IMG/VR virus record: IMGVR_UViG_3300009104_001101
Span: 1-29,201 of that record
Reading direction: 5' to 3' (one strand)
Origin: a virus
Length of the DNA stretch: 29,201 bases
The first letter of the stretch is position 1, and the number at the start of each line of letters is the position of its first letter. The notes beneath the pieces were generated by a model, which did not search any database, had not been told where the DNA came from, and saw only the letters and a program-made list of their open reading frames with translations. This document shows positions 2,966 through 29,201 of the stretch, in pieces. The position numbers and the translations under genes are program-made.

Positions 2966-5107
2966 ATGAGTTATAAATTTGATGATAAAGGTTTTGTGTT
3001 TAGGTCTGGTCCTTCTAAGGTTCAGAAAAACCAATATTCATCATTTTGGATTAATAATAACAATGACGATGAATATGATGAGTTATTTGGAACTGAAAAA
3101 AATAAGGGTCGTGACCTTGTTCAGTTAGCGTCATATAAGAGAGCTATCAGTAACTTTGTTAATATCGTTACTGGTGAGACTATCCCTGTTGTATTTAATT
3201 CAAAAGATGAAAGTTATACGAATGGTAAAAAAGTTGTGATTGGTTCTAATCTTACTGATAAGAACTTTGATGTTGCAGTTGGGTTAGCTCTTCACGAGGG
3301 TTCACATATTAAGTTGTCTGATTTTGATTTTCTAAGACATCTTGAGACTAATATTCCACAAGAGATTTATAATCTTGGTGAGACTATGGGTGTTCCAAGA
3401 ATGGAAATTGTTAAAACTGTTAAAAGTATTTTAAACTATGTTGAAGATAGAAGAATTGACTATTTCATTTTCTCTTCTTCACCTGGTTATAAAGGTTATT
3501 ATAATTCTATGTATGATAAGTACTTTTATTCTAAGAATGTAGATAAAGGTCTGTTGTCATCAGAGTTCAGAACAGAAGAGATTGATTCTTATATGTTCAG
3601 AATTATTAATCTTCATAACAAAAATCGTCAGTTGGGTGCTCTTAAAGGTTTGAGAGAAATCTATGACATTATTGATTTAAGAAATATTCAAAGATTAAGA
3701 GATACTAATGATTGTTTCAATATTTCTTGTGAAGTTATGAGTCAAATTCTTCTTTCAATTGATAAGATTGAAGTTTCTGATTCTGATGAAAGTCAAGGTC
3801 AAGGTGGTTCTTCTGATAATACTATGTCTGATGAAGAGTTTGAGTCTCTTCTTGATTCTGTTGAGAATGGTGACTCTATGAGTTCTTCTGATTCTGATTC
3901 AACTGGTGGTGGAAAAACTATTGATGTTCCTGTTCAAGGTTCTCCTACAACACCAGATGAAAATCTTCCAAATGATGATGGTTCTGAAAGTGTTGAATTA
4001 TCAGATAGACAAAAAGAGTTATTGAAAAAAGCGTTTCAAAAACAAGAAAAGTTTCTTGATGGTGATATTCAGAAAACTAAAATGTCTAAAAAAGATTCAA
4101 AAGATATTAAAGCTATTGAAGAGAGTGGTGCTGGTTATGAAACTGTTGGTAAAGATGTTCCTAATTATTATGGTTCTACCGGTGGTGCTGGTACTAAATG
4201 TTTGGTTGTTAAGAACTTAACTCAATCAATCATTGATTCAGACCAATTTAGATGTGCTTCTTCTTGGAATCAATCAAACTACAATTCTTCTTCAGAGTGG
4301 AGTAGAAGAGATTATAACTTTGTTGAAGAGGGTATGAGAATTGGAACTATGTTGGGTAGAAAACTTCAAGTTAGAAACGAAGAAAATGTTACTAAATATA
4401 CAAGAAAAGATTCTGGAAGACTTGATAAGAGATTAATCTCTGAATTAGGTTTCGGAAACTCTAATGTGTTTAGTCAAACTTTCGTTGATAAATTTAATAA
4501 AGTATTTGTTCACTTATCAATTGATGCTAGTGGTTCTATGTGTGGTTCTAAATGGAACAAAGCTATGACAAGTGCTGTAGCGATGATTAAAGCGTCTGAT
4601 ATGGTTGGGAACATTGAGGTGGTTGTTTCAATCAGAACTACTCACGATAATGATAGAAGAGGTTCTTCTTCAGTTCCTTTCATTATGGTTTGTTATGATT
4701 CAAGAAAAGATAACTTGACCAAAGTTAGAAAATTATTTCCAGCGTTAGATGTTAGTGGAACTACTCCTGAGGGATTATGTTTCGAGTCTATTATGGATGA
4801 ATTGATTCCTGGTTCAACAACTCAAGATAGTTATTTCATCAACTACTCAGATGGTCAGCCTTACTATGGTAACAATGACATCTCTTATAGTGGTGAGAGA
4901 GCTGAGAGACATACTAAGAAAATGGTTGATATGATGAGAGCTAAAGGTATTAAAGTTCTTAGTTATTTCATCGGTGATTCAGATTATAGTTATGAATCTG
5001 ATAAAACAGCGTTTTCAAATATGTATGGTTCTGATTCTGAGTTTGTTAATGTGACTAATGTCGTGGATGTCGCGAGAACTATGAATAAAAGATTCTTAAC
5101 AAAGTAG
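2966..5107 (+). CDS. CobT-like metallopeptidase-fold/VWA-domain protein (713 aa)
   Basis: The protein has three parts. Residues ~50-260 form a metallopeptidase-like domain with HEGSH (110-114, an HExxH motif) and a downstream NYVEDRRIDYF, whose E160 may be the third metal ligand. Residues ~270-345 are a Ser/Asp/Glu-rich acidic linker. Residues ~480-713 form a VWA domain with a complete MIDAS: DASGS (520-524), a GTTPEG threonine (598-603) and D629 in YSDGQP. This order matches CobT, the VWA subunit of the aerobic cobaltochelatase, and the related DUF2201-type VWA metallopeptidases, which work with MoxR/CobS AAA+ ATPases. No such ATPase lies in this window. Two promoters precede it and a terminator follows, so it forms its own unit. 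Codons are unusually rich in CTT, GTT and TCT compared with its neighbours. A B12 link is supported only by architecture and by the B12-dependent reductase at 9641. Confidence 0.8.
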   Translation: MSYKFDDKGFVFRSGPSKVQKNQYSSFWINNNNDDEYDELFGTEKNKGRDLVQLASYKRAISNFVNIVTGETIPVVFNSKDESYTNGKKVVIGSNLTDKNFDVAVGLALHEGSHIKLSDFDFLRHLETNIPQEIYNLGETMGVPRMEIVKTVKSILNYVEDRRIDYFIFSSSPGYKGYYNSMYDKYFYSKNVDKGLLSSEFRTEEIDSYMFRIINLHNKNRQLGALKGLREIYDIIDLRNIQRLRDTNDCFNISCEVMSQILLSIDKIEVSDSDESQGQGGSSDNTMSDEEFESLLDSVENGDSMSSSDSDSTGGGKTIDVPVQGSPTTPDENLPNDDGSESVELSDRQKELLKKAFQKQEKFLDGDIQKTKMSKKDSKDIKAIEESGAGYETVGKDVPNYYGSTGGAGTKCLVVKNLTQSIIDSDQFRCASSWNQSNYNSSSEWSRRDYNFVEEGMRIGTMLGRKLQVRNEENVTKYTRKDSGRLDKRLISELGFGNSNVFSQTFVDKFNKVFVHLSIDASGSMCGSKWNKAMTSAVAMIKASDMVGNIEVVVSIRTTHDNDRRGSSSVPFIMVCYDSRKDNLTKVRKLFPALDVSGTTPEGLCFESIMDELIPGSTTQDSYFINYSDGQPYYGNNDISYSGERAERHTKKMVDMMRAKGIKVLSYFIGDSDYSYESDKTAFSNMYGSDSEFVNVTNVVDVARTMNKRFLTK

Positions 5108-5127
5108 TGGATTATTTCATTACTTGT

Positions 5128-5178
5128 GGGGGAGCTTCTCTTTTACTCCTTTCTTGGAGTTCCCCCGAAAATTTTTTT
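5128..5178 (+). terminator. Strong intrinsic terminator after the VWA gene
   Basis: GGGGGA (5128-5133) pairs with TCCCCC (5161-5166). Inside, ACTCC (5145-5149) pairs with GGAGT (5156-5160) around TTTCTT. A run of seven T (5172-5178) follows. Such G/C runs stand out in this AT-rich sequence. It should isolate the VWA unit from the gp32 gene. Confidence 0.88.
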
Positions 5179-5202
5179 GTATTTTAAGAAAGTTAGTAAT
5201 AC

Positions 5203-5233
5203 TTATTAGTGTCGATATGGTTTCGACTAATAA
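5203..5233 (+). promoter_or_regulatory. Hairpin in the gp32 leader, possible autoregulatory site
   Basis: TTATTAGT (5203-5210) pairs with ACTAATAA (5226-5233). After a two-base bulge, CGA (5213-5215) pairs with TCG (5223-5225) around TATGGTT. The structure ends about 20 bases before the AGGAG ribosome site (5253-5257). In T4, gp32 represses its own mRNA through a structured leader, so an equivalent role is plausible here but is inference. Confidence 0.5.
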
Positions 5234-5263
5234 CAAATAATAAATAAAAAGTAGGAGTTAATA

Positions 5264-6049
5264 ATGGATATTAATGCGATTAAACAAAGGTTATCTCAAC
5301 TCAAAGAGACAAACACAAAACAATCTTCCTTATGGAAGCCTTCACCGGGAACACAACAAGTAAGAATAGTACCTTACAAATTCAATAAGGATAATCCTTT
5401 TATTGAGTTGTACTTTCACTATGATGTTGCGAAAAGAACATATCTTTCACCAATATCATTTGGAAGACCAGACCCAATTGAAGAGTTTGCAACAAAACTA
5501 AAACAAACTGGTAATAAAGACGACTGGAGATTAGGTCGTAAGTTAGATGCCAAAATGAGAACTTTTCTTCCTGTTATAGTTAGGGGTGAAGAAGCTCAAG
5601 GTGTTAAGTTTTGGGGATTTGGAAAAACAGTTTATCAAGAACTGTTAGGTTTTATTGCTGACCCTGATTACGGTGATATCGCAGACCCAATGACAGGTCG
5701 TGACATCTCTGTTGAATTTAAAACTGCTGAAGAGACAGGTGCAAACTTTCCTTCAACATCAATCAGAGTTAAGCCTAATCAAACACCAATAACTGAAGAT
5801 AAAGAACAACTTAAATCTATGATTGAAAATCAGCAAAAGATTACTGAAATCTATACTGAGCAGTCATATGATGAGTTGAAAGAAGTTCTTCATAATTATT
5901 TAAACCCATCTGATACAGATGCTAATGAAAGTGGTGCTGTAGGAAATACAGAAACTGCGACAGATGACGGATTAGATAAAGTTGTTGATAAAAAAACCGA
6001 GAAGAATAGTGATGTAGAAGCTGCCTTTGACGACTTGTTCAATAGCTAA
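5264..6049 (+). CDS. 32: Single-stranded DNA-binding protein gp32 (261 aa)
   Basis: This is a T4 gp32-type protein that coats single-stranded DNA in replication and recombination. The call rests on the basic N terminus (MDINAIKQRLSQLKE), the core opening SLWKPSPGTQQVRIVPYK, the aromatic-rich middle (KFWGFGKTVYQELLGFIADPDYGDI), and the acidic C-terminal tail ending DVEAAFDDLFNS, which in T4 contacts replication partners. It lies directly before uvsX. At 261 residues it is shorter than T4 gp32 (301). The whole protein has no cysteine, so the zinc site of T4 gp32 (three Cys, one His) is absent. The start has AGGAG 6 bases upstream. The upstream terminator means it needs its own promoter, which I could not place confidently. 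Confidence 0.93.
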   Translation: MDINAIKQRLSQLKETNTKQSSLWKPSPGTQQVRIVPYKFNKDNPFIELYFHYDVAKRTYLSPISFGRPDPIEEFATKLKQTGNKDDWRLGRKLDAKMRTFLPVIVRGEEAQGVKFWGFGKTVYQELLGFIADPDYGDIADPMTGRDISVEFKTAEETGANFPSTSIRVKPNQTPITEDKEQLKSMIENQQKITEIYTEQSYDELKEVLHNYLNPSDTDANESGAVGNTETATDDGLDKVVDKKTEKNSDVEAAFDDLFNS

Positions 6050-6061
6050 ATAACAATGATT

Positions 6062-6096
6062 TAAGTGGTGGTGAAAATTAAACTCACCACCACTTA
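6062..6096 (+). promoter_or_regulatory. Perfect 13-bp hairpin between gp32 and uvsX
   Basis: TAAGTGGTGGTGA (6062-6074) is the exact reverse complement of TCACCACCACTTA (6084-6096), with a 9-base A/T-rich loop. No T-run follows, so it is not a typical terminator. It may stabilise the gp32 message against 3' decay or attenuate read-through into uvsX. The uvsX ribosome site (AGGAG) follows closely. Confidence 0.7.
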
Positions 6097-6113
6097 TAAT
6101 ACAGGAGAAATTT

Positions 6114-7211
6114 ATGGCAATTAGAGATGATTTGGCTGAAATATTAGCCGGTGATTTAAATAAAAAATTCAAAGGTACTAAAGTAGCTTATTTCTTGGAT
6201 GGTTCAGACCAGACACCAACAGATGTGGATGATTTCATATCAACTGGTTCAGATATGTTAGATTTAGCAATATCTAATAGGCCAAACGGTGGTATAGCCG
6301 TTGGTCGTATTACAGAAATAAATGGTTTGGAATCGAGTGGTAAATCTCTATTAGGTGCTCATCTTCTAGCAGAAACTCAGAAGAAGGGTGGTGTAGCAGT
6401 TTATATAGATACTGAGACATCGGTTAGTAGAGACTTCTTAACTGCGATTGGTGTTGATATTAGTAGTATGTTATATCTTCATACAGAGACGGTTGAGGAT
6501 ATTTTTGAAATTATAGAATCAATAGTAGTAAAAATTAGAGAGTCCAATAAAGATAGATTGGTGACGATTTTGGTCGATAGTTTGGCAGCCGCCAGCACGA
6601 AAGTTGAAATGGAAGCCGACTACGATAAAGATGGTTGGGCTACAAGTAAAGCAATCGTGATAAGTAAAGCTATGAGAAAAATCACCCAAATGATAGGGAG
6701 AGAAAAAGTAGCACTTGTATTCACGAATCAGCTTAGACAGAAGTTGGGTGTGATGTTTGGAGACCCGTGGACTACCTCTGGTGGTAAAGCACTTCCATTT
6801 CACGCTTCGACAAGAATCAGATTAAAGAATATGGGTCAGTTGAAAGACAAGAGTGGTAAGAATGTTCTTGGAATGAAAGTCAGAGCACAGATTGTAAAGA
6901 ATCGATTAGGCCCACCACTTAGAAACGCCGACTATACAATGTACTTTGATAGGGGTATTGACAACTATGGAAACTGGTTGGAAAAAATGAAGGAACACGG
7001 AATATGTAAAATCGGTGGTGCTTGGTATACATTAAATTTCAATGGTAAGGATTATAAATTTCTATCTAAGGACTTTGAAGACCTATTAGAGAAGAATCCA
7101 GAATTGAAAGATTGGTTATATCAAGAAATATGTGAGAAAGTAATATTAAAATATCAGGACAAAATCGGAATCGATGATGTACAAATAGACGCGACAGATG
7201 CCGAAGAATAA
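6114..7211 (+). CDS. uvsX: UvsX RecA-like recombinase (365 aa)
   Basis: This is a RecA/Rad51-type strand-exchange ATPase of the T4 UvsX family, acting with gp32 in recombination-dependent replication and repair. Walker A is GLESSGKS (71-78). VTILVDSLAA (around 150) supplies Walker B, and LVFTNQLRQK corresponds to the loop following the RecA core sensor region. The length is close to T4 UvsX (391). The start has CAGGAGAAATTT upstream. Its 3' end overlaps the exonuclease gene by 14 bases, suggesting translational coupling. The gp32-uvsX order places recombination genes together as a module. Confidence 0.95.
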   Translation: MAIRDDLAEILAGDLNKKFKGTKVAYFLDGSDQTPTDVDDFISTGSDMLDLAISNRPNGGIAVGRITEINGLESSGKSLLGAHLLAETQKKGGVAVYIDTETSVSRDFLTAIGVDISSMLYLHTETVEDIFEIIESIVVKIRESNKDRLVTILVDSLAAASTKVEMEADYDKDGWATSKAIVISKAMRKITQMIGREKVALVFTNQLRQKLGVMFGDPWTTSGGKALPFHASTRIRLKNMGQLKDKSGKNVLGMKVRAQIVKNRLGPPLRNADYTMYFDRGIDNYGNWLEKMKEHGICKIGGAWYTLNFNGKDYKFLSKDFEDLLEKNPELKDWLYQEICEKVILKYQDKIGIDDVQIDATDAEE

Positions 7212-8199
7212 GTATATAAGCCTATTTAACGAACTTCAAAAGCCGGATGATTTGGAAACCAATCCAAACGATAGAGTATTAGTGATTGATGGTTTGAACA
7301 CCTTTATAAGATGTTTCGCCGTTAATCCTTCTACTAATGACGATGGTATACACATCGGGGGGATTGTGGGATTCTTGAAATCCATTGGATACGCCATCAA
7401 GACTCATAGTCCGACCCGTTGTGTCATTGTCTTTGACGGAAAGGGTGGTTCTCAAAGAAGAAGAAAAATATTTCCGGATTACAAAGAAAAGCGTCGAGTA
7501 AATACAAGATTCAATAGAACAAATGATTTTTCTTCATTTGAAGATGAGCAACAATCTCTGAGAATGCAAATTACTCGATTGCTTGGCTACTTAAATACAT
7601 TGCCACTCACAACTTTAATGATAGAAAATGTTGAAGCTGATGATGTGATGGCTTATATAGCAAAAAGTGTATTAAAAGATAGTAAGATGATACTTATGTC
7701 TACTGATAAAGATTTTATACAATTAGTCGATGATAGGATTTCAGTTTGGAGTCCTACTAAGAAAAAAATGTATAATCCTGAAATGGTTTTTGATGAGTTT
7801 GGTATTCCATCACATAACTTTGTAATGTATAGAGTCGTTGACGGAGATAAAAGCGATTGTATTCCTGGAGTTAAGGGTTGGGGTAAGAAGACTCTGATTA
7901 AAAAAGTTCCATCGATATTAGAAGATAAGGTTATGACACCTCAAGATTTAATCGATAATGGTTTAGATGAAAATATAGTAAACTTGAATTATGATTTAAT
8001 GCAATTAGAAGATGTTGATATTAGTGGTACTTCTAAATTAAAGATTCAAAATATTGTAAATGAAAAAGTAGACCAATTAGTAAAAATCGATTTTCAAAAA
8101 ATGGTCATAGAAGATAAATTAAATTCAGCTTTTCCAAACTTAGATGTTTGGTTAGCAGAAACATTTAATAGAATAAATGTTATAGCGGGGAATCAATAA
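7198..8199 (+). CDS. rnh: T4 Rnh-type 5'-3' exonuclease/RNase H (333 aa)
   Basis: This is a FEN-family 5' nuclease like T4 RNase H, which removes lagging-strand RNA primers and adjoining DNA. Metal-binding acids are in place: D31 in VLVIDGLNTF, D80 in VIVFDGKGG, the EADD cluster at 146-149, D170 and D172 in MSTDKDFIQL, and DGDKSD near 215-220. A helix-hairpin-helix-like segment follows (IPGVKGWGKKTLIKK). The length is close to T4 Rnh (305). The start overlaps the end of uvsX, with no clear ribosome site, so translation probably depends on coupling. The next gene begins immediately after its stop. Confidence 0.92.
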   Translation: MPKNKYISLFNELQKPDDLETNPNDRVLVIDGLNTFIRCFAVNPSTNDDGIHIGGIVGFLKSIGYAIKTHSPTRCVIVFDGKGGSQRRRKIFPDYKEKRRVNTRFNRTNDFSSFEDEQQSLRMQITRLLGYLNTLPLTTLMIENVEADDVMAYIAKSVLKDSKMILMSTDKDFIQLVDDRISVWSPTKKKMYNPEMVFDEFGIPSHNFVMYRVVDGDKSDCIPGVKGWGKKTLIKKVPSILEDKVMTPQDLIDNGLDENIVNLNYDLMQLEDVDISGTSKLKIQNIVNEKVDQLVKIDFQKMVIEDKLNSAFPNLDVWLAETFNRINVIAGNQ

Positions 8200-9552
8200 A
8201 TGACAGATAAAGTTAGTTTACATCAGTATGGAAATTCTTTTCAAGCAAAACTAATAGCATCTCTCTTAACAAACCGACAATTTTTAGAACAAATTCAAGA
8301 TATACTTGAACCAAAATTCTTTGAATCAGATTCAAATAATTGGTTATGTAAAGAGATAAAAAAATATTTTAACAAGTATAAGAAGTTACCTACATTGGAT
8401 GCGTTAAAAGTAATAATTGATAATGATACCGAAGATATTTTAAGAGTATCCATTGTCGAGGATTTAAAAAATGCATTTAAACATTTCGAAGCAACTGATT
8501 TGGATTTTGTTCAAGAGAAAGCTTTAGATTTTTGCAAGAATCAAAAAATTAAAGATGCTATAGTAGTATCAGTAGATTTATTACAACAAGGTAATTATGA
8601 AGAGATTAAAAAACTTGTTGATGAGGCTTTGAAAGCTGGTACTGAACGAGATATAGGGCATGTTTATATGGAGCAGTTTGAGGATAGATATTTAGAATCA
8701 GCTCGAACAACTGTTAAAACGCCTTGGGAAGTTGTAAATGATTTAACAGATGGTGGATTAGGGCCAGGAGAACTTGGGGTTGTAGTAGCACCAGCAGGTA
8801 TTGGTAAATCTTGGGTTTTGCAAGCTATTGGAGCTGGAGCTATTAAAAATGGAATGTCGGTAGTTCACTATACATTGGAGTTAAATGAATCATATACAGG
8901 TTTGAGATACGATAGTATTTTTAGTGGATTTGCATCTCAAAATTTGAAATTTCATAAGGAAGAAGTAAAATCAAAACTTGATGACTTAGATGGAAATTTA
9001 GTTGTTAAGTATTATCCCACAAAAACTGCATCAGTTCAAACATTATCAGCACATTTACAGAGAATGATTACACTTGGTACAGAGGTTGATATGGTTATTT
9101 TGGATTATGGTGATTTATTAAGGGATGTGAATAATAATAAAGAAGTAAGACACGCACTTGGAAATATTTATGAAGATTTAAGGGGTTTAGCAGGTGAGTA
9201 CGAAATTCCCGTATGGACAGCTTCACAAGCTAATAGAAGTGCGTTAGAAGAGGATGTGATTCAAGCCGAGAAGGTAGCTGAATCATATCAAAAAGTAATG
9301 ACAGCAGATTTTGTGGTGTCGTTGAGTAGGAAAGTTGGTGATAAGATTGCTAATACAGGAAGATTTCATATTATAAAAAATAGATTTGGACCTGATGGAA
9401 TTACATTACCAGCAAAAGTAAATACTAATAATGGTTCAATTGACATTTATGATGGTAGTAGTCAAAATGGTCAAGAACAACAAGGTAAGATGAATAATCA
9501 GGAAGAGTATGTCAGAAAACAATTAGCACAAAAGTACAAAGATTTGGGCTAA
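8200..9552 (+). CDS. 41: Replicative DNA helicase gp41 (DnaB-like, 450 aa)
   Basis: This is a hexameric 5'-3' replicative helicase of the DnaB/gp41 family that moves on the lagging strand and partners with primase. Residues 1-150 form the helical N-terminal domain. The RecA-like motor carries Walker A APAGIGKS (197-204), LDYGD as Walker B (301-305), ASQANRSA as sensor region, and IIKNRFGPDG near 395 with the basic residues expected of a DnaB motif 4. The length is near T4 gp41 (475). It follows the exonuclease without a gap and ends the recombination/replication cluster. The primase gene (gp61) is not in this window. Confidence 0.94.
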   Translation: MTDKVSLHQYGNSFQAKLIASLLTNRQFLEQIQDILEPKFFESDSNNWLCKEIKKYFNKYKKLPTLDALKVIIDNDTEDILRVSIVEDLKNAFKHFEATDLDFVQEKALDFCKNQKIKDAIVVSVDLLQQGNYEEIKKLVDEALKAGTERDIGHVYMEQFEDRYLESARTTVKTPWEVVNDLTDGGLGPGELGVVVAPAGIGKSWVLQAIGAGAIKNGMSVVHYTLELNESYTGLRYDSIFSGFASQNLKFHKEEVKSKLDDLDGNLVVKYYPTKTASVQTLSAHLQRMITLGTEVDMVILDYGDLLRDVNNNKEVRHALGNIYEDLRGLAGEYEIPVWTASQANRSALEEDVIQAEKVAESYQKVMTADFVVSLSRKVGDKIANTGRFHIIKNRFGPDGITLPAKVNTNNGSIDIYDGSSQNGQEQQGKMNNQEEYVRKQLAQKYKDLG

Positions 9553-9578
9553 AAGTCATATATACGATATTTATATTC

Positions 9579-9593
9579 GGTTACAGAATAACC
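9579..9593 (+). promoter_or_regulatory. Small hairpin in the intergenic leader of the reductase gene
   Basis: GGTTA (9579-9583) and TAACC (9589-9593) form a 5-bp stem with a 5-base loop in the 88-base gap before the ribonucleotide reductase. No -35/-10 pair like the four clear promoters is visible. The gap is too short for a cobalamin riboswitch, so any regulation here is unresolved. Confidence 0.25.
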
Positions 9594-9640
9594 ACGCATA
9601 CATAATCCACTTTTTAAAATTTAAGATAGGAGAGTAAGAA

Positions 9641-11665
9641 ATGAAAAAGACGGCCTTCAAATTGTCGGATAAGTTTATAGACGGGTACAAAAGAAAAAGA
9701 GCACCATTTGGGTTCAATGGTCTCGGTGAGTTAGTATATATGAGAACCTATTCAAGATTAAAAGAAGATGGAAAAAATGAAATGTGGTGGGAAACTGTTA
9801 GGCGTGTTGTTGAGGGAACTTACAATATGCAAAACAAATGGATTAACTCACACGAATTAGGATGGAATGCGTGGCAAGCTCAACGAAGTGCCCAAGAGAT
9901 GTATGATAGAATATTCAATATGAAATTCTTACCTCCTGGTCGTGGATTGTGGTCAATGGGAACACCTATTACAGAAGAAAAAGGTATTTATGCAGCACTT
10001 AATAATTGTGCTTTTGTATCAACACAAAATTTAAAAGAAGATTTAGCAAAACCATTTTGTTTTTTAATGGATGCGAGTATGTTAGGAGTAGGTGTAGGAT
10101 TTGACACAAAAGGAGCAGAACAATTTGTAATTAGGGGGCCAAAAGAAGATAGAGATGTTGATACATATAATATACCTGATACAAGAGAAGGTTGGGTTGA
10201 ATCTGTAAGGCGTTTATTAGATTCATATTTTCTTGGTGTAGCACCAGTTCAGTTCAATTATGATGAAATTAGAGCGGCTGGAGAGCCTATTAAGGGATTT
10301 GGTGGAGTATCATCAGGACCTGAACCATTGAAGGATATACACGAAGATATACGAGCTTGTTTAGATGAGAATGTAGGAGAACCAATATCAGTAACAACAA
10401 TTGTAGATATAATGAATCTGATTGGTAAGTGTGTTGTAGCTGGTAATGTTAGACGAACAGCCGAGATTGTATTTGGAGACCCACATTCAGAAGAATATTT
10501 AAATTTAAAAAATTATGAAAAAAATCCACATAGAGAAACTTATGGTTGGACATCAAATAATTCTATATTTGCAGAACTTGGTATGGATTATACAGAAGCT
10601 TCTGAAAGAATTACAGACAATGGTGAACCTGGTTTCGCGTGGTTAGATAATATGAGAGAATATTCTCGTATGAGAAATGGTAGAGATAATAAAGACCATA
10701 GAGTAGCTGGTGGTAATCCTTGTTTGGAACAATCATTAGAATCATATGAGTTGTGTTGTCTTGTAGAAACATTTCCAAGTAATCACGATTCATTAGATGA
10801 TTATTTGAAAACTTTAAAATATGCATATTTATATGCTAAAACGGTTACATTAGGAAAAACACATTGGGCAGAAACAAATCGTGTAATGCTTAGGAATAGA
10901 AGAATAGGTTGTTCAGTTAGTGGTATAGCTCAATTCGTATCAGCTCCTGGTGGTATTCACAAATTAAGAACTTGGTTAGAAGCTGGATACGACCACATTC
11001 AGGAATTGGATAAACAATATTCTGATTGGATGGCAATTCCTCGTAGTGTCAAGACTACATCAGTAAAACCAAGTGGAACAGTTTCTCTATTAGCTGGAGC
11101 AACTCCTGGACTACATTATCCAGAATCTAAATACTATATTAGAAGAATTAGACTATCAGTAAATTCACCACTATTAAAACCTTTAGAAAAAGCTGGATAC
11201 AAAATCGAACCGGCATTTGGTAGTGAAGATTCTACGGTTGTAGTAGAAGTTCCTGTTGATGTTGGTGAAGGTGTTAGAACTCTTAGTCAGGTTCCGATGT
11301 GGGAGCAGTTATCCTTAGCTGCATTTATGCAAAAGTATTGGGCAGATAATCAAGTTTCTTGTACGGTCACATTTGACCCAGAAACAGAAGGCCCTCAAAT
11401 ACCATATGCATTAAATTATTTCCAATATCAATTAAAAGGTATTTCTCTATTACCAAAAACAGAAATGGGAGCTTATAGACAAATGCCTTACGAGGAAATC
11501 ACACAAAAAGAATATGATAAAATGGTTAAAAAATTAGGTTTCTTATCATTCAGACAAGTTAAGGGTAATGAAGCAGAAGTTGAAAAATTCTGTAATAATG
11601 ATACCTGTGAAATTGATTTTGAAGAAATAAAAGAAACACAAGAAGAAAAAACAGAAGTTATATAA
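9641..11665 (+). CDS. nrdJ: Adenosylcobalamin-dependent ribonucleotide reductase, class II monomeric (674 aa)
   Basis: This enzyme reduces ribonucleotides to deoxyribonucleotides with adenosylcobalamin, needing no second subunit and no oxygen. It follows the Lactobacillus RTPR pattern: LPPGRGLWSMG, then NNCAFVS with C123 (redox pair), then GGNPCLEQSLESYELC. That block gives the thiyl Cys C361, catalytic E363 and redox C372 at exactly the RTPR spacing. C651 and C656 (CNNDTC) near the tail match the C-terminal pair that re-reduces the active site. It is somewhat shorter than RTPR (739). The start has AGGAGAG upstream. T4 uses class I NrdAB instead, so dNTP supply here depends on B12. It is followed directly by promoter P3. 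Confidence 0.95.
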   Translation: MKKTAFKLSDKFIDGYKRKRAPFGFNGLGELVYMRTYSRLKEDGKNEMWWETVRRVVEGTYNMQNKWINSHELGWNAWQAQRSAQEMYDRIFNMKFLPPGRGLWSMGTPITEEKGIYAALNNCAFVSTQNLKEDLAKPFCFLMDASMLGVGVGFDTKGAEQFVIRGPKEDRDVDTYNIPDTREGWVESVRRLLDSYFLGVAPVQFNYDEIRAAGEPIKGFGGVSSGPEPLKDIHEDIRACLDENVGEPISVTTIVDIMNLIGKCVVAGNVRRTAEIVFGDPHSEEYLNLKNYEKNPHRETYGWTSNNSIFAELGMDYTEASERITDNGEPGFAWLDNMREYSRMRNGRDNKDHRVAGGNPCLEQSLESYELCCLVETFPSNHDSLDDYLKTLKYAYLYAKTVTLGKTHWAETNRVMLRNRRIGCSVSGIAQFVSAPGGIHKLRTWLEAGYDHIQELDKQYSDWMAIPRSVKTTSVKPSGTVSLLAGATPGLHYPESKYYIRRIRLSVNSPLLKPLEKAGYKIEPAFGSEDSTVVVEVPVDVGEGVRTLSQVPMWEQLSLAAFMQKYWADNQVSCTVTFDPETEGPQIPYALNYFQYQLKGISLLPKTEMGAYRQMPYEEITQKEYDKMVKKLGFLSFRQVKGNEAEVEKFCNNDTCEIDFEEIKETQEEKTEVI

Positions 11666-11724: not shown

Positions 11725-13203
11725 ATGAACAAATTATATGAAAAATATGGCAATCATCCATTCTACGGGAGAAGAATCCTGCATGTTAATTCTCCTGTAA
11801 GGTGGAAAAGTAAAAAATATTTACATCATTTATGTGCAAATTATAAAGTTATGGATAAAACAGTTAATTGGTTACCAATGTGTCATCATTATGTTTTAGT
11901 TCCACCTCATAATACAATTCCAAATGATAGACCTAATGTTACTTTGATTCCATTTAATTATGCAGGAAGTGTACTATTTAATCGTGGTTGGTTTAATAGT
12001 AAGGAATTTTTAAATTCAGTAGATTTCAGTAAATTGGATATTGATTTTATATTCAATCATCAACCTGAACTGATGTATAATGTATTGAATGCTACAATGA
12101 CAGATAGATATGGTGGTTCAGCAGATAGTTTTATATTCTTTCATTGGGTTGATAGTCCACAATCAAAACCATCGGGTGATTTTCCAGATGGATTTATGCG
12201 TCAGTTAGAAGCTATGAATCTAGCTACTAAAACTTATTTTCATTGTGACGCTTCACTTGATTACTTAAAATCTAATTTTAAAAAGGAAAGACCAGTTCTT
12301 GGAATTAATGACAATTTCTGTAAAGAAAAAATAAGTAGTTTTCCACTATCAGCTGATGGATTTCCTGATTCAATGCCCTTTGAATTACCTGATAAAAAGA
12401 TTTTAGTATTTAATCATAGATGGGCTAAGACAACTGGTGTTGAAAAATTAGTTAGTTATACAAAAGACTTAGATGAGGATTGGTTGATTTGGATTACTGA
12501 TAGAAATGCAAGAAAACCAAAAGCAGGTAAACCAGCTCCTGAAGCTTTTAAAGACCACAAATGTGGTTTAAGAATTGAAGGATTGGAAAGAAGTCAATAT
12601 AGATATTTGATTGAGAATTGTTATGCTACATTATGTTTCGTAGACAAATATATGACTTGGAATTTATCTGTCCAAGATGGTATACATTTGGGAACACCAA
12701 CGATAGTTTATGACCATCCTGTAGAAAAGTATGTTCTTGGTGAGAATTATCCTTATATGTTTAAAAACAAAAAAGAGTTTGTTGAGATGTTGGATAAAGT
12801 TGATAATGACAGAGATACTTTTGATTGGACATTACCTGAACACGATAAAGCGTTTAAAGAAAATTTATTTAAAGATATACAAGAAGCTATTGATAATAAA
12901 CCAAGTCGTGATTGTGGTGACGGCCCTAAATGGTTATGGCATATCCTTCAAGGAAATAGTTACAAGAAAAATATTTTATATAATACTCATCCTAATTTAT
13001 ATCTAAGTAATGTTTGGGAGTGGATAAGATTGTATTGTATGGAGCGTGGTATTGTAGATGACCCATTAAGTAAATATACAAAACTTACTATTCCTGATGA
13101 TGAGGTTAGAGAAGCAATAGAAAAAGAATTAAATGGGTTAGATTTGAAAGAATCTAAAAAAGACCCTAAGTTTTCAGTATCAACAGAAAAATCATTTTGG
13201 TAA
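11725..13203 (+). CDS. GT-B-like glycosyltransferase, paralogue 1 (492 aa)
   Basis: The product resembles a GT-B-fold glycosyltransferase. The second half has KILVFNHRWAKTTG, typical of the start of the nucleotide-sugar-binding domain, and WNLSVQDGIHLGTPTIVYD followed by a stretch like YPYMFKNKKEFVEML, as in group 1 transferases. The protein at 19846 is clearly a paralogue, sharing GRR(I/V)LH, LPMCHHYV, FHWVD and WNLSVQDG. Acceptor and sugar are unknown; candidates are modified DNA bases or host/virion glycans. No base hydroxymethylase gene is visible here. It is the first gene after promoter P3 and is followed after 6 bases by gp43. Confidence 0.7.
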   Translation: MNKLYEKYGNHPFYGRRILHVNSPVRWKSKKYLHHLCANYKVMDKTVNWLPMCHHYVLVPPHNTIPNDRPNVTLIPFNYAGSVLFNRGWFNSKEFLNSVDFSKLDIDFIFNHQPELMYNVLNATMTDRYGGSADSFIFFHWVDSPQSKPSGDFPDGFMRQLEAMNLATKTYFHCDASLDYLKSNFKKERPVLGINDNFCKEKISSFPLSADGFPDSMPFELPDKKILVFNHRWAKTTGVEKLVSYTKDLDEDWLIWITDRNARKPKAGKPAPEAFKDHKCGLRIEGLERSQYRYLIENCYATLCFVDKYMTWNLSVQDGIHLGTPTIVYDHPVEKYVLGENYPYMFKNKKEFVEMLDKVDNDRDTFDWTLPEHDKAFKENLFKDIQEAIDNKPSRDCGDGPKWLWHILQGNSYKKNILYNTHPNLYLSNVWEWIRLYCMERGIVDDPLSKYTKLTIPDDEVREAIEKELNGLDLKESKKDPKFSVSTEKSFW

Positions 13204-17980: not shown

Positions 17981-18979
17981 ATGCTCACAAAGTTAGAGTA
18001 CATATGGTTAGACGGAACGGAGCCTACAACTCAGTTGCGTAGTAAAACAAAAGTAGTAGAGGACTTTAAACAAAATATTCAAGATTGTCCTGTATGGGGA
18101 TTTGATGGTTCGTCAACAAATCAAGCAGAAGGAAAAGACTCTGATTGTGTTTTGAAACCAGTTAAGTTGTATGAGAATCCAATGGAAAAACACGATTCAT
18201 ATTTGGTATTATGTGAGGTTTGGGATGTAGATGGAAATCCACATTCTACAAATAAAAGATTCAATTTAGATGATATTCAAGCTAAATATTCAAAAGAAGA
18301 AGTATGGGTTGGTATAGAGCAAGAATATACTCTGTTTAAAGATGGAAGACCTTTGGGTTGGCCAATGCACGGAACACCTCCACCACAAGGCGATTACTAT
18401 TGTGGTAGAAATGAGGGTGAGTGGTTAGCTCGTAAACATATGGAGTTATGTATAAGTACCGGTCTTAAAATAAGTGGTATTAATTCAGAGGTAATGCTTG
18501 GTCAATGGGAATATCAAATAGGTGCAGATGACCCGATTACGATTTCAGATGATTTATGGATAGCTAGATGGTTATTAGAAAAGGTTTGTGCGAAATATGA
18601 AGTTACAGTTACACTTGACCCAAAACCTGTTGAAGGTGATTGGAATGGTGCTGGTGCACATACAAACTTTTCTACTAAAGCTATGAGAGAAGATGGTGGT
18701 GATATGGTTATTCATAAAGGTATAAAAAAATTAGAAGCACGACATAATGAACATATTCAAGTTTATGGTTATGGTAATGAGAGAAGACTTACTGGAATGC
18801 ACGAAACTTGTCCTATAAATATGTTTCATTGGGGTGTATCTGATAGAGGAGCGTCAGTACGAGTTCCTTGGCAAGTAAGTAATGATGGTAAGGGATATTT
18901 AGAAGACAGGAGGCCATCGGCTAATTGTGACCCTTATGTCGTATGTCATAAACTAATAGACACAATATGTGGAGAGTAA
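17981..18979 (+). CDS. glnII: Glutamine synthetase, eukaryotic-type GSII (332 aa)
   Basis: This enzyme makes glutamine from glutamate, ammonia and ATP. It is the short GSII (GlnII) type, typical of eukaryotes and some bacteria, not the ~470-aa GSI. Metal and substrate residues are intact: E113/E115 in GIEQEYTLF, E170/E177 in INSEVMLGQWEYQ, H227 in WNGAGAHTNFST, RR at 268-269 in GNERRLTGMHE, and E308/R310 in LEDRRPSANCDPY. One change is notable: the usual RIPR reads VRVPW, putting Trp at 297. It follows gp62 by 9 bases with an AGGAGAATAT site, so it belongs to the replisome operon. Composition matches the neighbours, which argues against very recent transfer. It may supply glutamine or assimilate ammonia during infection. 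Confidence 0.95.
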   Translation: MLTKLEYIWLDGTEPTTQLRSKTKVVEDFKQNIQDCPVWGFDGSSTNQAEGKDSDCVLKPVKLYENPMEKHDSYLVLCEVWDVDGNPHSTNKRFNLDDIQAKYSKEEVWVGIEQEYTLFKDGRPLGWPMHGTPPPQGDYYCGRNEGEWLARKHMELCISTGLKISGINSEVMLGQWEYQIGADDPITISDDLWIARWLLEKVCAKYEVTVTLDPKPVEGDWNGAGAHTNFSTKAMREDGGDMVIHKGIKKLEARHNEHIQVYGYGNERRLTGMHETCPINMFHWGVSDRGASVRVPWQVSNDGKGYLEDRRPSANCDPYVVCHKLIDTICGE

Positions 18980-18980
18980 A

Positions 18981-19826
18981 ATGAAAAATATGTATGAATA
19001 TAATGAAGTTGTAAAGAAGATGAGATTCTTCTTTCAAGAAGCAAAGGGTTTTGTCGAAGTACCTGCACAATCACGACAATCGATATTAGCTGCGTGTGAA
19101 GACCCAGCAACAATATCACAATATATCTTTAGTGGAGTTAATTGGCCACTACCTCAAACAGGTCAAATGTGGCTAGAAAGAGATTTATTGGATAATCCTG
19201 ATGCAAAGGGAGTATTCTGTATCACAACAAGTTACAGAAATGAACCAAACCCGGTGCCAGGGCGTCACGATAAGATATTTCCAATGTTTGAATTTGAGTC
19301 ACACGGTGATATGGAAGATATGGTCAAATTAGAAACAGAACTATTGAATCACTTAGGATTTAATAATCGTTATGCTGATAAACAAGATTATGCAAGAATA
19401 ACATACGATGATGCTTCTGATAAATATGGAGTTTCTGAATTAGATTATGCAGAAGAAGAAGCACTTTGTAAGGACTTTGATAACTGCACATTCGTAACAG
19501 ACTTTCCATTAAGAACACATCCATTTTGGAATATGAAGCATAAAGGTAATGGAATATATTCTAAAGTTGATGTTATAATGCACGGAATGGAAACAATAGG
19601 TTCAGCTGAAAGAGCAACAGATGTCTATGAGATGAGAGAGCAGTTTCATAACATTTCAGATGGTGAGTATGCAAATCTTCTGTTCAATCACTTTGGTCAA
19701 AAAAGAGTTGAAGATGAGTTAGACGAGTATTTATCACTTGATATGTTTGAACGCTTTGGTGGTGGAATTGGAGTTACTCGTATGGTAGCTGCTATGAAAG
19801 CTGAAGGGCTCCTGCTAGATAGATAA
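18981..19826 (+). CDS. Class II aaRS-like ligase, AsnRS/asparagine-synthetase type (281 aa)
   Basis: The fold is the catalytic core of a class II aminoacyl-tRNA synthetase of the Asp/Asn group. Motif 2 is TSYRNEPNPVPGRHDKIFPM (83-102, with R86, E88 and RH), and motif 3 is GGGIGVTRM (260-268). A VIMHGMETIGSAERATD block matches the usual acid-rich strand before motif 3. There is no anticodon-binding domain. That is the architecture of archaeal AsnRS-derived asparagine synthetase and of E. coli-type AsnA, which adenylate aspartate and add ammonia. Placement next to glutamine synthetase supports an amide-forming role. It could also aminoacylate another target. A GTG at 18969 is possible, but the ATG at 18981 with GGAGAG 5 bases upstream is preferred. 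Confidence 0.82.
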   Translation: MKNMYEYNEVVKKMRFFFQEAKGFVEVPAQSRQSILAACEDPATISQYIFSGVNWPLPQTGQMWLERDLLDNPDAKGVFCITTSYRNEPNPVPGRHDKIFPMFEFESHGDMEDMVKLETELLNHLGFNNRYADKQDYARITYDDASDKYGVSELDYAEEEALCKDFDNCTFVTDFPLRTHPFWNMKHKGNGIYSKVDVIMHGMETIGSAERATDVYEMREQFHNISDGEYANLLFNHFGQKRVEDELDEYLSLDMFERFGGGIGVTRMVAAMKAEGLLLDR

Positions 19827-19845: not shown

Positions 19846-21255
19846 ATGAAAAGTCATAAATTATACGGGAGACGAGTATTACATTTCTTGTCTCCTGTTA
19901 GATTCGATAGAAATGTTTTCAAACATTCATCAGATTCAAATTATAAGGTTGTAGAAAAAACAATAAAACATCTACCGATGTGTCATCACTATGTTGTAGT
20001 TCCTGAGAATCACATTATAGAAGATAATAGGTCAAATGTTACATTGATAAAATATCCTTATCCTCAGAACGCGGTTAGTAACAGAGCAACATTTAATTTT
20101 CAAGCATTTAGAAGGTTGATGAATATGAAGCAGATGGATATTGATTTTGTATTTACACATCAGCCTGAATTATTATTTAATATTATGACTGGTCTTATGG
20201 ATGAGAGATATGGTGAGATAGTTAATAGATTCTTATTCTTCCATTGGGTAGATTGTCCACAGAGTAGAGGTTCATCAGCTATTCCACATAGTTATATGAA
20301 ACAATTGGGTTCTATTAATCAATGTAATAAAGTATTTTTCCATACAGATATTGCGAGTGAGTATTTTGAAAAGAATTATACTAAAGAATGTGCCACTACT
20401 TTAAATTTAGATTATATAAAATCAAAGTCAAGTTTCTTTCCTTTAGCCGCAGATGATTTTCCAGAACCACAACCAGTTGATTTACCAGATAAAAAAATTA
20501 TTGTATTTAATCATCGTTGGAATGTATCTACTGGTTGGAAAAGAATGGTTAAGTATACAGAAGATTTGAATGATGATTATATGATATGGTGCACCGACCC
20601 AAAAGCACCTAAAGAGTATGCAGGAAAAGGATTACCTTTTTCGCAATATGGATATTTATTAAAAGAGAGTCTATGTAGTGTATGTTTTGTTGATAGCTAT
20701 GCTACTTGGAATCTATCAGTGCAAGATGGTTTAAAATTTGATAAACCAGTTTTATGTTATAAACACCCTGTAATGACAAAGGTTCTTGGAGAGGATTATC
20801 CATTTTTCTTCAAGACAAAAGAAGAATTTTTAAATCTTTTAAAAGTTGTTGAAAAAAATGCAGGAAAAGAGTTCAAGTGGGAACTACCAGACCACGAGAA
20901 CAATTTTAAAAATAATTTAATCAATAGTATGGAAGAATGTATTCTAACAGATATTAATTGTCCAAAGGATACGATGAATTGGATTTATTGTGTATTGAAT
21001 GGTTATGAATTTAAAAAAGATATAACGAATCAGGTTCAACCAAATCTAATGTTAAATTCAGTTTGGCAATATATAAGAAGATGGTTATTAGCTAATGGAG
21101 TTCAAGATGACCCAAATTGTCAATTTACAAGATATTCTATACCAGAAGATAAAAGAGAAGAGTTTGAAAAAATGACTCAATCAGTAGATATGGTATTGAA
21201 ACCAAAAACTACAAAACAAACAATAATAAATAATAAAAATCACGGATTTTTCTAA
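19846..21255 (+). CDS. GT-B-like glycosyltransferase, paralogue 2 (469 aa)
   Basis: This is a paralogue of the protein at 11725. Shared blocks include YGRRVLHFLSPVR, LPMCHHYVVVP, FLFFHWVD, KIIVFNHRWNVSTGW, ATWNLSVQDG and VLGEDYPFFFKTKEEF. It is 23 residues shorter, with a shorter stretch between the NHRW block and the WNLSVQDG block. Conservation is highest in the C-terminal nucleotide-sugar-type domain. Donor and acceptor are unknown. It follows the ligase by 19 bases with an AAAAGGTTATAT leader, and the nuclease gene starts one base after its stop. The paralogue pair flanks the polymerase/clamp/glutamine synthetase block. Confidence 0.7.
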   Translation: MKSHKLYGRRVLHFLSPVRFDRNVFKHSSDSNYKVVEKTIKHLPMCHHYVVVPENHIIEDNRSNVTLIKYPYPQNAVSNRATFNFQAFRRLMNMKQMDIDFVFTHQPELLFNIMTGLMDERYGEIVNRFLFFHWVDCPQSRGSSAIPHSYMKQLGSINQCNKVFFHTDIASEYFEKNYTKECATTLNLDYIKSKSSFFPLAADDFPEPQPVDLPDKKIIVFNHRWNVSTGWKRMVKYTEDLNDDYMIWCTDPKAPKEYAGKGLPFSQYGYLLKESLCSVCFVDSYATWNLSVQDGLKFDKPVLCYKHPVMTKVLGEDYPFFFKTKEEFLNLLKVVEKNAGKEFKWELPDHENNFKNNLINSMEECILTDINCPKDTMNWIYCVLNGYEFKKDITNQVQPNLMLNSVWQYIRRWLLANGVQDDPNCQFTRYSIPEDKREEFEKMTQSVDMVLKPKTTKQTIINNKNHGFF

Positions 21256-24780: not shown

Positions 24781-26178
24781 ATGAAATTAGCAAGAAGTAA
24801 GAAAAAAATACTACTCTTATCAGACGATTTACGAATGCATTCTGGTATCGGAACAATGTCAAGATTTTTTGTGATGGGAACATTGGATAAATACGATTGG
24901 GTTCAGATAGGTGGAGCTATCACACATCCAGATAAAGGAAAAATAGCAGATTTATCTCAAAGTATGAAAGAAGAAACAGGTGTTTCTGATGCATATTTAA
25001 AAATTTATGCTACTGATGGTTATGGTGATTCCAATATTCTAAGAGAAGTTATGGATATAGAAAAACCAGATGCTATTCTACACTTTACAGACCCAAGATT
25101 CTGGGGATGGTTATATCAGATGGAGCACGAGTTAAGACAAACAACACCACTTATGTATTATACTATTTGGGATGACTTACCTTATCCAAGATGGAATGAA
25201 CCATTTTATGAATCTTGTGATTTGTTGATGTGTATTTCAAAACAAACATATGGTATAGTTAATAATGTAGTAAGAAAGTTTCCAAAAAAAGATTGGCAGA
25301 TAACATATGTTCCTCACGGAATACACGAAGATAAATATTTTCCAATAGATTCATTTCATTCAGATTGGGATGAATTTAAAAAATTCAAAAAAACTCTCGT
25401 TGGAGATTCAGATTTTGTATTCTATTGGACTAATAGAAATATTCGTAGAAAATCACCTGGAGATTTAATTTTAGCTTATAAATTATTTTGTGATTCATTA
25501 CCAAAAGAAAAAGCTGAAAAATGTTGTTTATTAATGCATACTGCAGGAGTTGACCAAAATGGAACAGATTTACCAGCAGTTATTAGAGAGATTTGTCCAG
25601 ATTATAAAGTTGTTATTGATGAAGCTAAGGTTGATGACAAACATATGAATTTCTTATATAATATTGGTGATGTAACGGTTAATATAGCATCAAATGAGGG
25701 ATTTGGTCTATCAGGTGCAGAATCACTAATGAGTGGAACACCAATTATTAACAATATAACTGGTGGACTACAAGACCATTGTGGTTTCAAGTTAAAGGGT
25801 AAATATTTAACTGCAGATGATTATGTAGAAATAGGTTCATTACACGATGATAGAAAATGGGCAAACAATCCTGATTTAACTTGGGGTGAGTGGGTAAAAC
25901 CAGTATGGCCATCCAATCGTTCAATGGTTGGTTCGCCTCCAACACCATATATTTTTGATGACAGATGTAGATTTGATGATGTAGCTGAAGCGATGAAATA
26001 TTGGTATGATAAGACGCCTGAAGAGAGAGTCGATGCAGGAGCGTTGGGAAGAGAATTTGTTCTGGACCCTGAAACTGGAATGTCAACTAAAAATATGTCT
26101 AATAATTTTATCAAAGATATGGACTCTTGTTTTGAAAAATTTGAGAAAAGAGATAGATTCACATTATATGAGGTATAA
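24781..26178 (+). CDS. GT4-like glycosyltransferase (465 aa)
   Basis: The protein shows a GT-B fold of the GT4 group. The N-terminal domain begins KKILLLSDDLRMHSGIGTMS, with the glycine-rich acceptor loop. The C-terminal domain has NEGFGLSGAESLMSGTPII (near 305-325), holding the conserved E-x7-E that binds the sugar nucleotide, followed by GLQDH. It probably transfers a sugar from an activated donor to an unknown acceptor in the cytoplasm; there is no signal peptide. It leads a run of three glycosyltransferases with small genes between them. The next gene begins directly after its stop. Confidence 0.87.
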   Translation: MKLARSKKKILLLSDDLRMHSGIGTMSRFFVMGTLDKYDWVQIGGAITHPDKGKIADLSQSMKEETGVSDAYLKIYATDGYGDSNILREVMDIEKPDAILHFTDPRFWGWLYQMEHELRQTTPLMYYTIWDDLPYPRWNEPFYESCDLLMCISKQTYGIVNNVVRKFPKKDWQITYVPHGIHEDKYFPIDSFHSDWDEFKKFKKTLVGDSDFVFYWTNRNIRRKSPGDLILAYKLFCDSLPKEKAEKCCLLMHTAGVDQNGTDLPAVIREICPDYKVVIDEAKVDDKHMNFLYNIGDVTVNIASNEGFGLSGAESLMSGTPIINNITGGLQDHCGFKLKGKYLTADDYVEIGSLHDDRKWANNPDLTWGEWVKPVWPSNRSMVGSPPTPYIFDDRCRFDDVAEAMKYWYDKTPEERVDAGALGREFVLDPETGMSTKNMSNNFIKDMDSCFEKFEKRDRFTLYEV

Positions 26179-26529
26179 ATGAAAACAAAAAATATAAAAG
26201 ATATTACTTACAAACAAGTAGAGATAGATAAAAAACATATGGTTGTTGTATATTTTGATTATCAATATCCAATTTCAGAAGAAGATGTTACTCAGGTAAC
26301 TCAAACTATATCTAATATTATAAACGAAGATAGAAGATTTATAAATAGATGTATATTTCTACCAAAGGGATTTGATATGTATAATTTAACAGAAGATGAT
26401 TTCATTAGTATTTGGAGAAGTAAAGTTGATGATAAAATAGTAGATGAGGTTATTGAGAAGACAAAAAAAGACGAAAATCAATTAGAATTATTTGATAATG
26501 ATGTGGAGGTAATAGAAGAAAATGAGTAA
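26179..26529 (+). CDS. Protein of unknown function with a QLELF motif (116 aa)
   Basis: No family is recognised. The first 70 residues look like a small alpha/beta domain (MVVVYFDYQYPISEEDV, then NRCIFLPKGFDMYNL). The acidic C-terminal tail contains QLELF at 101-105 (26479-26493), which fits the bacterial sliding-clamp-binding pattern QLxLF. The gene starts right after the glycosyltransferase stop and overlaps the next gene by 8 bases, so all are likely translated together. Confidence 0.7.
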   Translation: MKTKNIKDITYKQVEIDKKHMVVVYFDYQYPISEEDVTQVTQTISNIINEDRRFINRCIFLPKGFDMYNLTEDDFISIWRSKVDDKIVDEVIEKTKKDENQLELFDNDVEVIEENE

Positions 26530-28874: not shown

Positions 28875-29201
28875 GTGAAGTTAAGTTATGCAATCACTAC
28901 TCATAATGAGTATGAAGAGATTAACGAGTTACTTGGTGTGCTCGTACATCATATAGATTCAAAAGATGAAATAGTAATACTTGATGATTTTTCAGATGAA
29001 CGAACACAAGAAGTATTTACATCTTGGACATCTCAGTACGGGCATGTAATAAATTTCAAAATAGAACAAAGAGCTTTAAATAAAAATTTCGCAGAACAAA
29101 AAAATTACTTGACTGGTATGTGTTCGGGTGATTATATTATAAACATAGACGCAGATGAAATTCCACACGATGTATTTTTGAATCAGATTAAACAAGTTAT
29201 A
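28875..29201 (+). CDS. GT2 family glycosyltransferase, 3' end beyond window (109 aa seen)
   Basis: Only the N-terminal part is present. The start is a GTG, since the codon just before it is a stop. KLSYAITTHNEYEEINELL is the classic GT2 (GT-A fold) opening, and GDYIINIDADEIPHD provides the DxD-type metal/nucleotide-sugar site near residue 94. This differs in fold from the GT-B enzymes upstream, so the cluster combines at least two glycosyltransferase folds. The acceptor is unknown. Confidence 0.85.
   Translation, partial: MKLSYAITTHNEYEEINELLGVLVHHIDSKDEIVILDDFSDERTQEVFTSWTSQYGHVINFKIEQRALNKNFAEQKNYLTGMCSGDYIINIDADEIPHDVFLNQIKQVI

Follow-up and report, generated by a model that had tools for sequence, protein, structure and literature searches.

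Genes at the locus

The stretch of DNA analysed here (the window) is the entire 29,201-base IMG/VR record IMGVR_UViG_3300009104_001101, a fragment of a marine T4-like phage. Its plus strand carries a gene (2966..5107) for a 713-amino-acid VWA protein of the co-chaperone type with an N-terminal metallopeptidase-like domain, as assigned from profiles, alignment and an AlphaFold model. Gp32 (5264-6049) starts 156 bp after the end of this gene and is followed on the same strand by UvsX (6114-7211), a 5'-3' exonuclease (7198-8199) and the gp41 helicase (8200-9552), all identified by profile matches. This group of T4-like replication genes (5264..9552) separates the VWA gene from a 674-amino-acid monomeric class II, adenosylcobalamin-dependent ribonucleotide reductase, also on the plus strand (9641..11665), and genes of the gp43/gp45/gp44 type come after the reductase.

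Architecture of the VWA protein

The protein consists of an N-terminal domain, an acidic linker and a C-terminal VWA part. The N-terminal domain (residues 46-268, 3101..3769), delimited by motif conservation, the model and its structural neighbours, contains an HExxH motif (residues 110-114, H110-E111-x-x-H114; 3293-3307) and, downstream, a putative third-ligand helix with E160, D161 and D165 (3443-3460). The linker (residues 265-345, 3758..4000) has 22 aspartate or glutamate residues against two lysine or arginine residues among its 81 positions, and low pLDDT (the confidence score of AlphaFold). The VWA domain and a preceding extension occupy residues 389-713 (4130..5104; placed by structure alignment and the Pfam CobT_C match) and include a complete metal ion-dependent adhesion site (MIDAS) formed by D520-x-S522-x-S524, T600 and D629. 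The original prediction, made from the sequence alone, had described this order of HExxH domain, acidic linker and VWA domain with complete MIDAS, and the description holds. All 76 of the 76 non-identical full-length homologues retain H110, E111, H114, E160, D161, D165 and the five MIDAS residues, so the motifs are not chance matches. HExxH together with ED-x-x-I-(D/E) is also present in the VWA partners of cyanophages, a pelagiphage, an Ochrobactrum phage, a Microcystis phage and E. coli phage-plasmids.

Judged by sequence, the gene is a member of a large family of marine phages. Relatives are plentiful in marine viral contigs, with at least 548 confirmed among at least 599 candidates, and include genes of Microcystis phage Mel-JY01 and the 484-kb phage LR756508. 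The best PHROG match of the protein is phrog_1576, whose tie to the cyanophage VWA genes is weak.

In the full-length AlphaFold model the domains are confident (pLDDT mostly 80-95), and the termini and linker are disordered. The C-terminal half (about residues 389-711) most closely resembles NorD of the NorQ-NorD complexes (9qh6_G; VIA-align Z 20.2 over 264 residues, root-mean-square deviation 4.2), followed by the MIDAS domains of Rea1/MDN1 (midasin; Z up to 17.0). Both are VWA partners of AAA+ motors, and the predicted structure has a NorD/Rea1-like VWA fold with an intact MIDAS. Viral structures that match over the full length are phage 'CobT' or VWFA proteins of actinobacterial phages, haloviruses and a Thermus phage.

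The N-terminal domain modelled alone has a pLDDT of 93.3. HExxH zinc peptidases make up almost the whole list of its structural neighbours in the VIA search, namely HtpX, selecase, jannalysin, abylysin, ArdC, ZMPSTE24, LTA4H, aminopeptidase N, thermolysin, SPRTN and IrrE. Based on the invariant HExxH, the downstream glutamate and this list of neighbours, the domain is best interpreted as a gluzincin-type metallopeptidase, with E160 as a putative zinc ligand.

The original prediction had also called the protein CobT-like, and this label stands weakly for the VWA part and fails for the remainder. Our comparison with cellular CobS and CobT consists of curated-profile scores and PDB matches. The best Pfam match of the protein is CobT_C (PF11775), which scores 16.9 bits over residues 508-559, below its gathering score of 21. 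Neither an NCBIfam CobT model nor an N-terminal CobT model is among the profile matches. Among solved proteins CobT is nearest to the VWA part by sequence (E = 0.21, about 42 residues), while NorD is nearest by structure. CobT (9uka) is absent from the structure-search lists (library releases up to 2026-04-08), and this absence carries no weight against CobT. A profile-profile comparison matches the VWA protein to phage 'CobT' proteins with 97% probability over 72 columns, and one of these phage proteins hits solved CobT at 64 bits. A complete-MIDAS VWA domain behind an acidic linker is a CobT trait; however, other VWA partners share it, and it is therefore not diagnostic.

An AAA+ partner in related phages

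A search for an AAA+ partner elsewhere in the genome had been suggested as a check, and among relatives of the window such a partner is consistently found. A MoxR-superclade AAA+ gene is present whole in 21 of the 23 long contigs that carry VWA relatives. The two remaining contigs can be explained by truncation: in one (G027) the AAA+ gene is cut at the contig end, and in the other (G024), which has no AAA+ gene, less than 5 kb separates the VWA gene from an end. Among 73 non-redundant loci the AAA+ gene is within 8 kb of the VWA gene in 46, always on the same strand, and in most loci the two are direct neighbours. In the subclade of the window (G003, G006, G009, G012 and L106) the AAA+ gene lies 4-18 kb upstream of the VWA gene. 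The window holds just 2965 bp upstream of its VWA gene, and by comparison with these relatives the AAA+ gene of this phage is most likely encoded a few kilobases to the left of the fragment.

The Walker A, Walker B and other ATPase motifs are conserved in the AAA+ sequences of the relatives, which are predicted ATPases and match PF07728 (AAA_5) at 61-78 bits. Against the CobS model TIGR01650 the AAA+ protein scores 28.6 bits, far under the cut-off of 558.55, and GvpN scores higher at 50.3 bits. TIGR01650 is not among the profile matches of the AAA+ protein of LR756508. Midasin is its best match among solved proteins at 67.7 bits; CobS (36.9) and NorQ (36.7) are level with one another.

A scan of genome contigs found two loci. 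One of them (L193, 6266-10205) is filed under a metagenome-assembled genome of the archaeon Nitrosopelagicus, carries both AAA+ and VWA genes and appears to derive from a phage; it may have been misbinned or may hint at another host.

Genome neighbourhoods

The most frequent neighbours in the 73 loci are Hsp20 (40 loci, for example L162, 8601-9131), an endonuclease (29), peptide deformylase (18) and PhoH (17, or 21 by a second method). Gp32 lies near the VWA gene in 14 loci, the window and 13 others. Pelagibacter phage HTVC008M likewise has Hsp20 close to its pair, making this neighbourhood common to two very divergent lineages. No structural gene was detected within 10 kb of the VWA gene in the 73 loci, although the references used are distant (about 25-45% identity) and may miss some structural genes near the pair. 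As a positive control, the same references detect structural genes on larger whole contigs, at least 18 kb from the pair.

More distant pairs lie beside replication and recombination genes. In cyanophages and an Ochrobactrum phage the pair is located between gp46/gp47 and gp45/gp44. In Thermus phage P74-26 (L227, 5893-8405) an AAA+ gene annotated as an 'ATP-dependent protease' adjoins a VWA gene 1.2 kb before DnaB, which is followed by a Holliday junction resolvase. In the E. coli plasmid NZ_CP148383.1 (L220, 3374-6813) CobT-type VWA and AAA+ genes directly precede dnaE. Such VWA/AAA+ genes are carried by phage-plasmid-like records of about 108 kb from E. coli, Klebsiella and Acinetobacter, the order relative to dnaE having been read in one record. 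In total, 1024 plasmid records match the VWA part. A tblastn search of plasmids for cellular CobT and CobS returned chiefly phage-plasmids and CbbQ/NorQ/MoxR proteins.

Proposed function

We consider it probable that the 713-amino-acid protein forms one half of an AAA+/VWA protein-remodelling machine, the half that engages the substrate, and that its N-terminal domain is a gluzincin-type metallopeptidase. A MoxR/VWA remodelling machine with no role in B12 had been offered as an alternative in the original prediction, and the AAA+ pairing in relatives and the NorD/Rea1-like fold of the VWA part both favour it. The original prediction would have been refuted by closest matches outside the CobT clade combined with the lack of an AAA+ partner in the full genome. 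This combination was not observed: relatives have a partner, and the solved protein nearest to the VWA part is CobT by sequence, at E = 0.21, and NorD by structure. By analogy with related systems, the machine probably remodels or cuts other proteins. A hexamer of the MoxR-superclade AAA+ protein would hold on to the VWA domain with its extension, in the way that NorQ holds the finger of NorD, and the MIDAS would capture an acidic residue of the target protein. ATP-driven movement would then pull on the acidic linker, and the HExxH domain would clip or otherwise act on the remodelled target. The analysis shows the domain architecture, the invariance of the motifs that resemble active sites, the pairing with AAA+ genes in relatives, the fold predicted for the VWA half and the independence from reductase class; complex formation, proteolysis and the timing of action are the steps that we infer. 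Since the pair is found in replication and recombination neighbourhoods and no structural genes were detected nearby, genome position suggests an early- or middle-phase function, outside the structural-gene cluster.

Several points weigh against this interpretation. The structural neighbours of the N-terminal domain have modest VIA Z values, all of 6.2 or less, and Foldseek finds no significant match for this domain (best E 0.84). Protease and ATPase activity are both predictions, and neither can be shown by sequence. The AAA+ content of the window is the clamp loader alone, with no MoxR-type AAA+ gene within its 29,201 bases. Also, the nearest named family of the VWA part by sequence is CobT_C, which makes a chelatase-like role possible, and the distance of the structural-gene references tempers the argument from position. 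We considered whether the lack of an AAA+ gene in the window means that the phage has no partner, and rejected this, as just 2965 bp precede the VWA gene in the fragment and the subclade has its AAA+ gene 4-18 kb upstream.

Two narrower proposals name a target for the machine; they are sub-cases of the remodelling reading, and the likelihoods we attach to them overlap with its own. In the first, the pair acts on replication or recombination proteins of the phage or host. The VWA gene directly precedes gp32, UvsX, exonuclease and gp41 in the window and in other loci, and the locations in cyanophages, the Ochrobactrum phage, the E. coli phage-plasmids and Thermus phage P74-26 described above are consistent with such a target. 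However, no replication gene lies within 10 kb in 59 of the 73 loci (some of which are cut by contig ends), and in two family genomes (G007 and G009) the replication genes are 37-60 kb away. As the argument is an indirect one from gene context, we regard this target as possible but doubtful.

In the second, the pair serves as a chaperone and processing protease in virion assembly, the role that Iyer et al. (2021, PMC7824862) put forward for the MoxR-vWA-peptidase pair in group 2.2 jumbo phages. The architecture matches that pair, including the N-terminal metallopeptidase, and the frequent presence of the folding helper Hsp20, both in the 73 loci and in HTVC008M, is also in its favour. The distance of the pair from all detected virion genes argues against it, as does its position beside replication and recombination genes in Kyanoviridae, Thermus phage P74-26 and the E. 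coli phage-plasmids. We consider a role in assembly somewhat less likely still than one in replication.

The ribonucleotide reductase and B12 supply

The original prediction identified the product of 9641-11665 as a B12-dependent reductase, and the profile evidence confirms a class II enzyme. It scores 353.8 bits with TIGR02505 (cut-off 340.05) and contains the B12-dependent insertion domain PF21995. Its only PDB sequence match is 1L1L, the AdoCbl-dependent RTPR of Lactobacillus leichmannii (325 bits). Catalytic-type cysteines are found at C123, C361 (in NPCLE) and C372, with a C-terminal pair at C651/C656. The class of a phage reductase can be misannotated, as in the case of P-SSP7 (PMC6370689). 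For the window we rejected a misannotated class I enzyme on the basis of the TIGR02505 score, the match to RTPR alone in the PDB, and the lack of a class I small subunit (NrdB) in the window. The reductase is part of the DNA replication gene set of the phage, with no demonstrated link to the VWA protein.

The favoured claim of the original prediction was that CobT boosts B12 for this reductase. In the corresponding published proposal for tailed viruses generally (Liu et al. 2021, PMC8651126), viral CobST, that is the VWA and AAA+ proteins, would join the CobN of the host, insert cobalt and so raise B12, here for a class II reductase of the phage. Besides this precedent, the sequence matches of the VWA part to CobT_C, to solved CobT and to phage 'CobT' proteins favour the proposal. 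If the pair served the reductase of the phage that encodes it, it would be expected to accompany class II enzymes. Among the ten family records in which a reductase was found, seven have a class II enzyme (six of the RTPR type and one NrdJ, in LR756508); the ratio does not amount to a test of association, as the records are fragments and related. The other three (G007, G008 and G010) have the same pair and a class I reductase with NrdB. P-SSM2, Syn9 and HTVC008M, which carry an analogous CobS-type gene, also have class I reductases; in P-SSM2 and HTVC008M the partner gene was inspected as well and is a VWA 'peptidase'. The pair thus occurs independently of reductase class.

Nor are pair and reductase linked in position. 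In G009, whose reductase is 82% identical to that of the window, the distance to the reductase is 42 kb for the AAA+ gene and 60 kb for the VWA gene, and in G007 a gap of 37 kb separates the pair from a class I reductase. The order seen in the window, from the VWA gene through gp32 to the reductase, is common to a few loci. A check of whether phages with a class II reductase carry the pair (5 of 33) says little about such a link, because most of the contigs are short. The proximity of the VWA gene to the reductase in the window looks coincidental, reflecting its position beside the replication cluster.

Further components of B12 synthesis had also been suggested as a check. CobN was not found in 26 phage records, although a host CobN could serve. 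The AAA+ protein falls far short of the CobS model, and the cobalt-insertion model gives the invariant HExxH no role. Related pairs occur on phage-plasmids of E. coli and Klebsiella, and E. coli lacks de novo synthesis of the corrin ring. Given the co-occurrence with class I enzymes, the lack of CobN, the failure of the CobS model and the separation of pair and reductase, we find the B12 interpretation unlikely.

These results concern an annotation that has been repeated widely. Nearly all marine T4-like cyanophages carry cobS, a core gene of cyanophages (PMC3037559); ecology papers count it as a B12 metabolism gene, and one of them calls its phage function untested (PMC9983427). The family described here provides comparative evidence that the AAA+/VWA pair does not track the use of a B12-dependent reductase and that the protease-like site of the VWA partner is intact in all members examined. 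Because of these two properties, the published proposals of B12 supply and of an assembly chaperone or protease can be separated by experiment. They argue against labelling such genes as B12 metabolism from annotation alone. We suggest more tentatively that an AAA+-driven phage metalloprotease cuts or remodels replication or host proteins in the course of infection, in which case the 'cobST' auxiliary-metabolic-gene label in marine phages would be wrong and would hide a common infection machine.

Other genes in the window

Shortly upstream of the VWA gene, at 2270-2737, is a gene for a PF04308 RNase H-like protein (96.5 bits). Directly past the replication genes is an unusual nitrogen/amino-acid pair (17981-19826). 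It consists of a GlnII-type glutamine synthetase (478.5 bits with NF041605 against a cut-off of 500) and an overlapping open reading frame that resembles class II aminoacyl-tRNA synthetases (AsnS/LysS-like; phrog_29758, 318 bits). The open reading frames at 11725-13203, 19846-21255, 24781-26178, 26522-27895 and 28875-29201 are glycosyltransferase-like or related, as judged by eye, and two of their products (492 and 469 amino acids) look like paralogues.

Comparison with known systems

Phage AAA+/VWA pairs have already been published, either as 'cobST' or as a MoxR-vWA-peptidase chaperone, and the protein described here adds another member. The 'cobST' genes and the cyanophage CobS with its 'peptidase' (PMC8651126, PMC3037559) similarly pair an AAA+ gene with an HExxH-acidic linker-VWA gene in tailed phages, and the domain order in P-SSM2, HTVC008M and others is the same as in the window. 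However, the sequences are very divergent: the cyanophage VWA protein aligns with the window profile over 124 columns of the N-terminal domain with an hhalign probability of 49%, and tblastn does not find the family AAA+ protein in any Kyanoviridae record. The reductase also differs, being class II in the window and class I in the cyanophages with cobS.

The group 2.2 jumbo phages (PMC7824862) likewise have a vWA co-chaperone fused to an N-terminal metallopeptidase, with a MoxR ATPase as partner. Their pair is proposed to act in virion assembly, whereas the family here is mainly from marine T4-like phages and has no detectable link to structural genes; this comparison is by description only.

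Cobaltochelatase CobS/CobT shares the acidic linker and the VWA domain with MIDAS, and the CobT_C match, though weak, is a further likeness. It differs in that the curated CobT and CobS models fail, the 26 phage records lack CobN, and no CobT N-terminal model matches the invariant HExxH domain. NorQ/NorD, together with CbbQ/CbbO and RavA/ViaA, is similar in that the VWA half of the protein is structurally closest to NorD. According to the published model of NorQ-NorD, a finger of the VWA protein inserts into the pore of the AAA+ protein, with twisting of the linker (PMC13036017). However, NorD inserts iron into nitric oxide reductase, while the N-terminal domain of the window protein is zincin-like instead.

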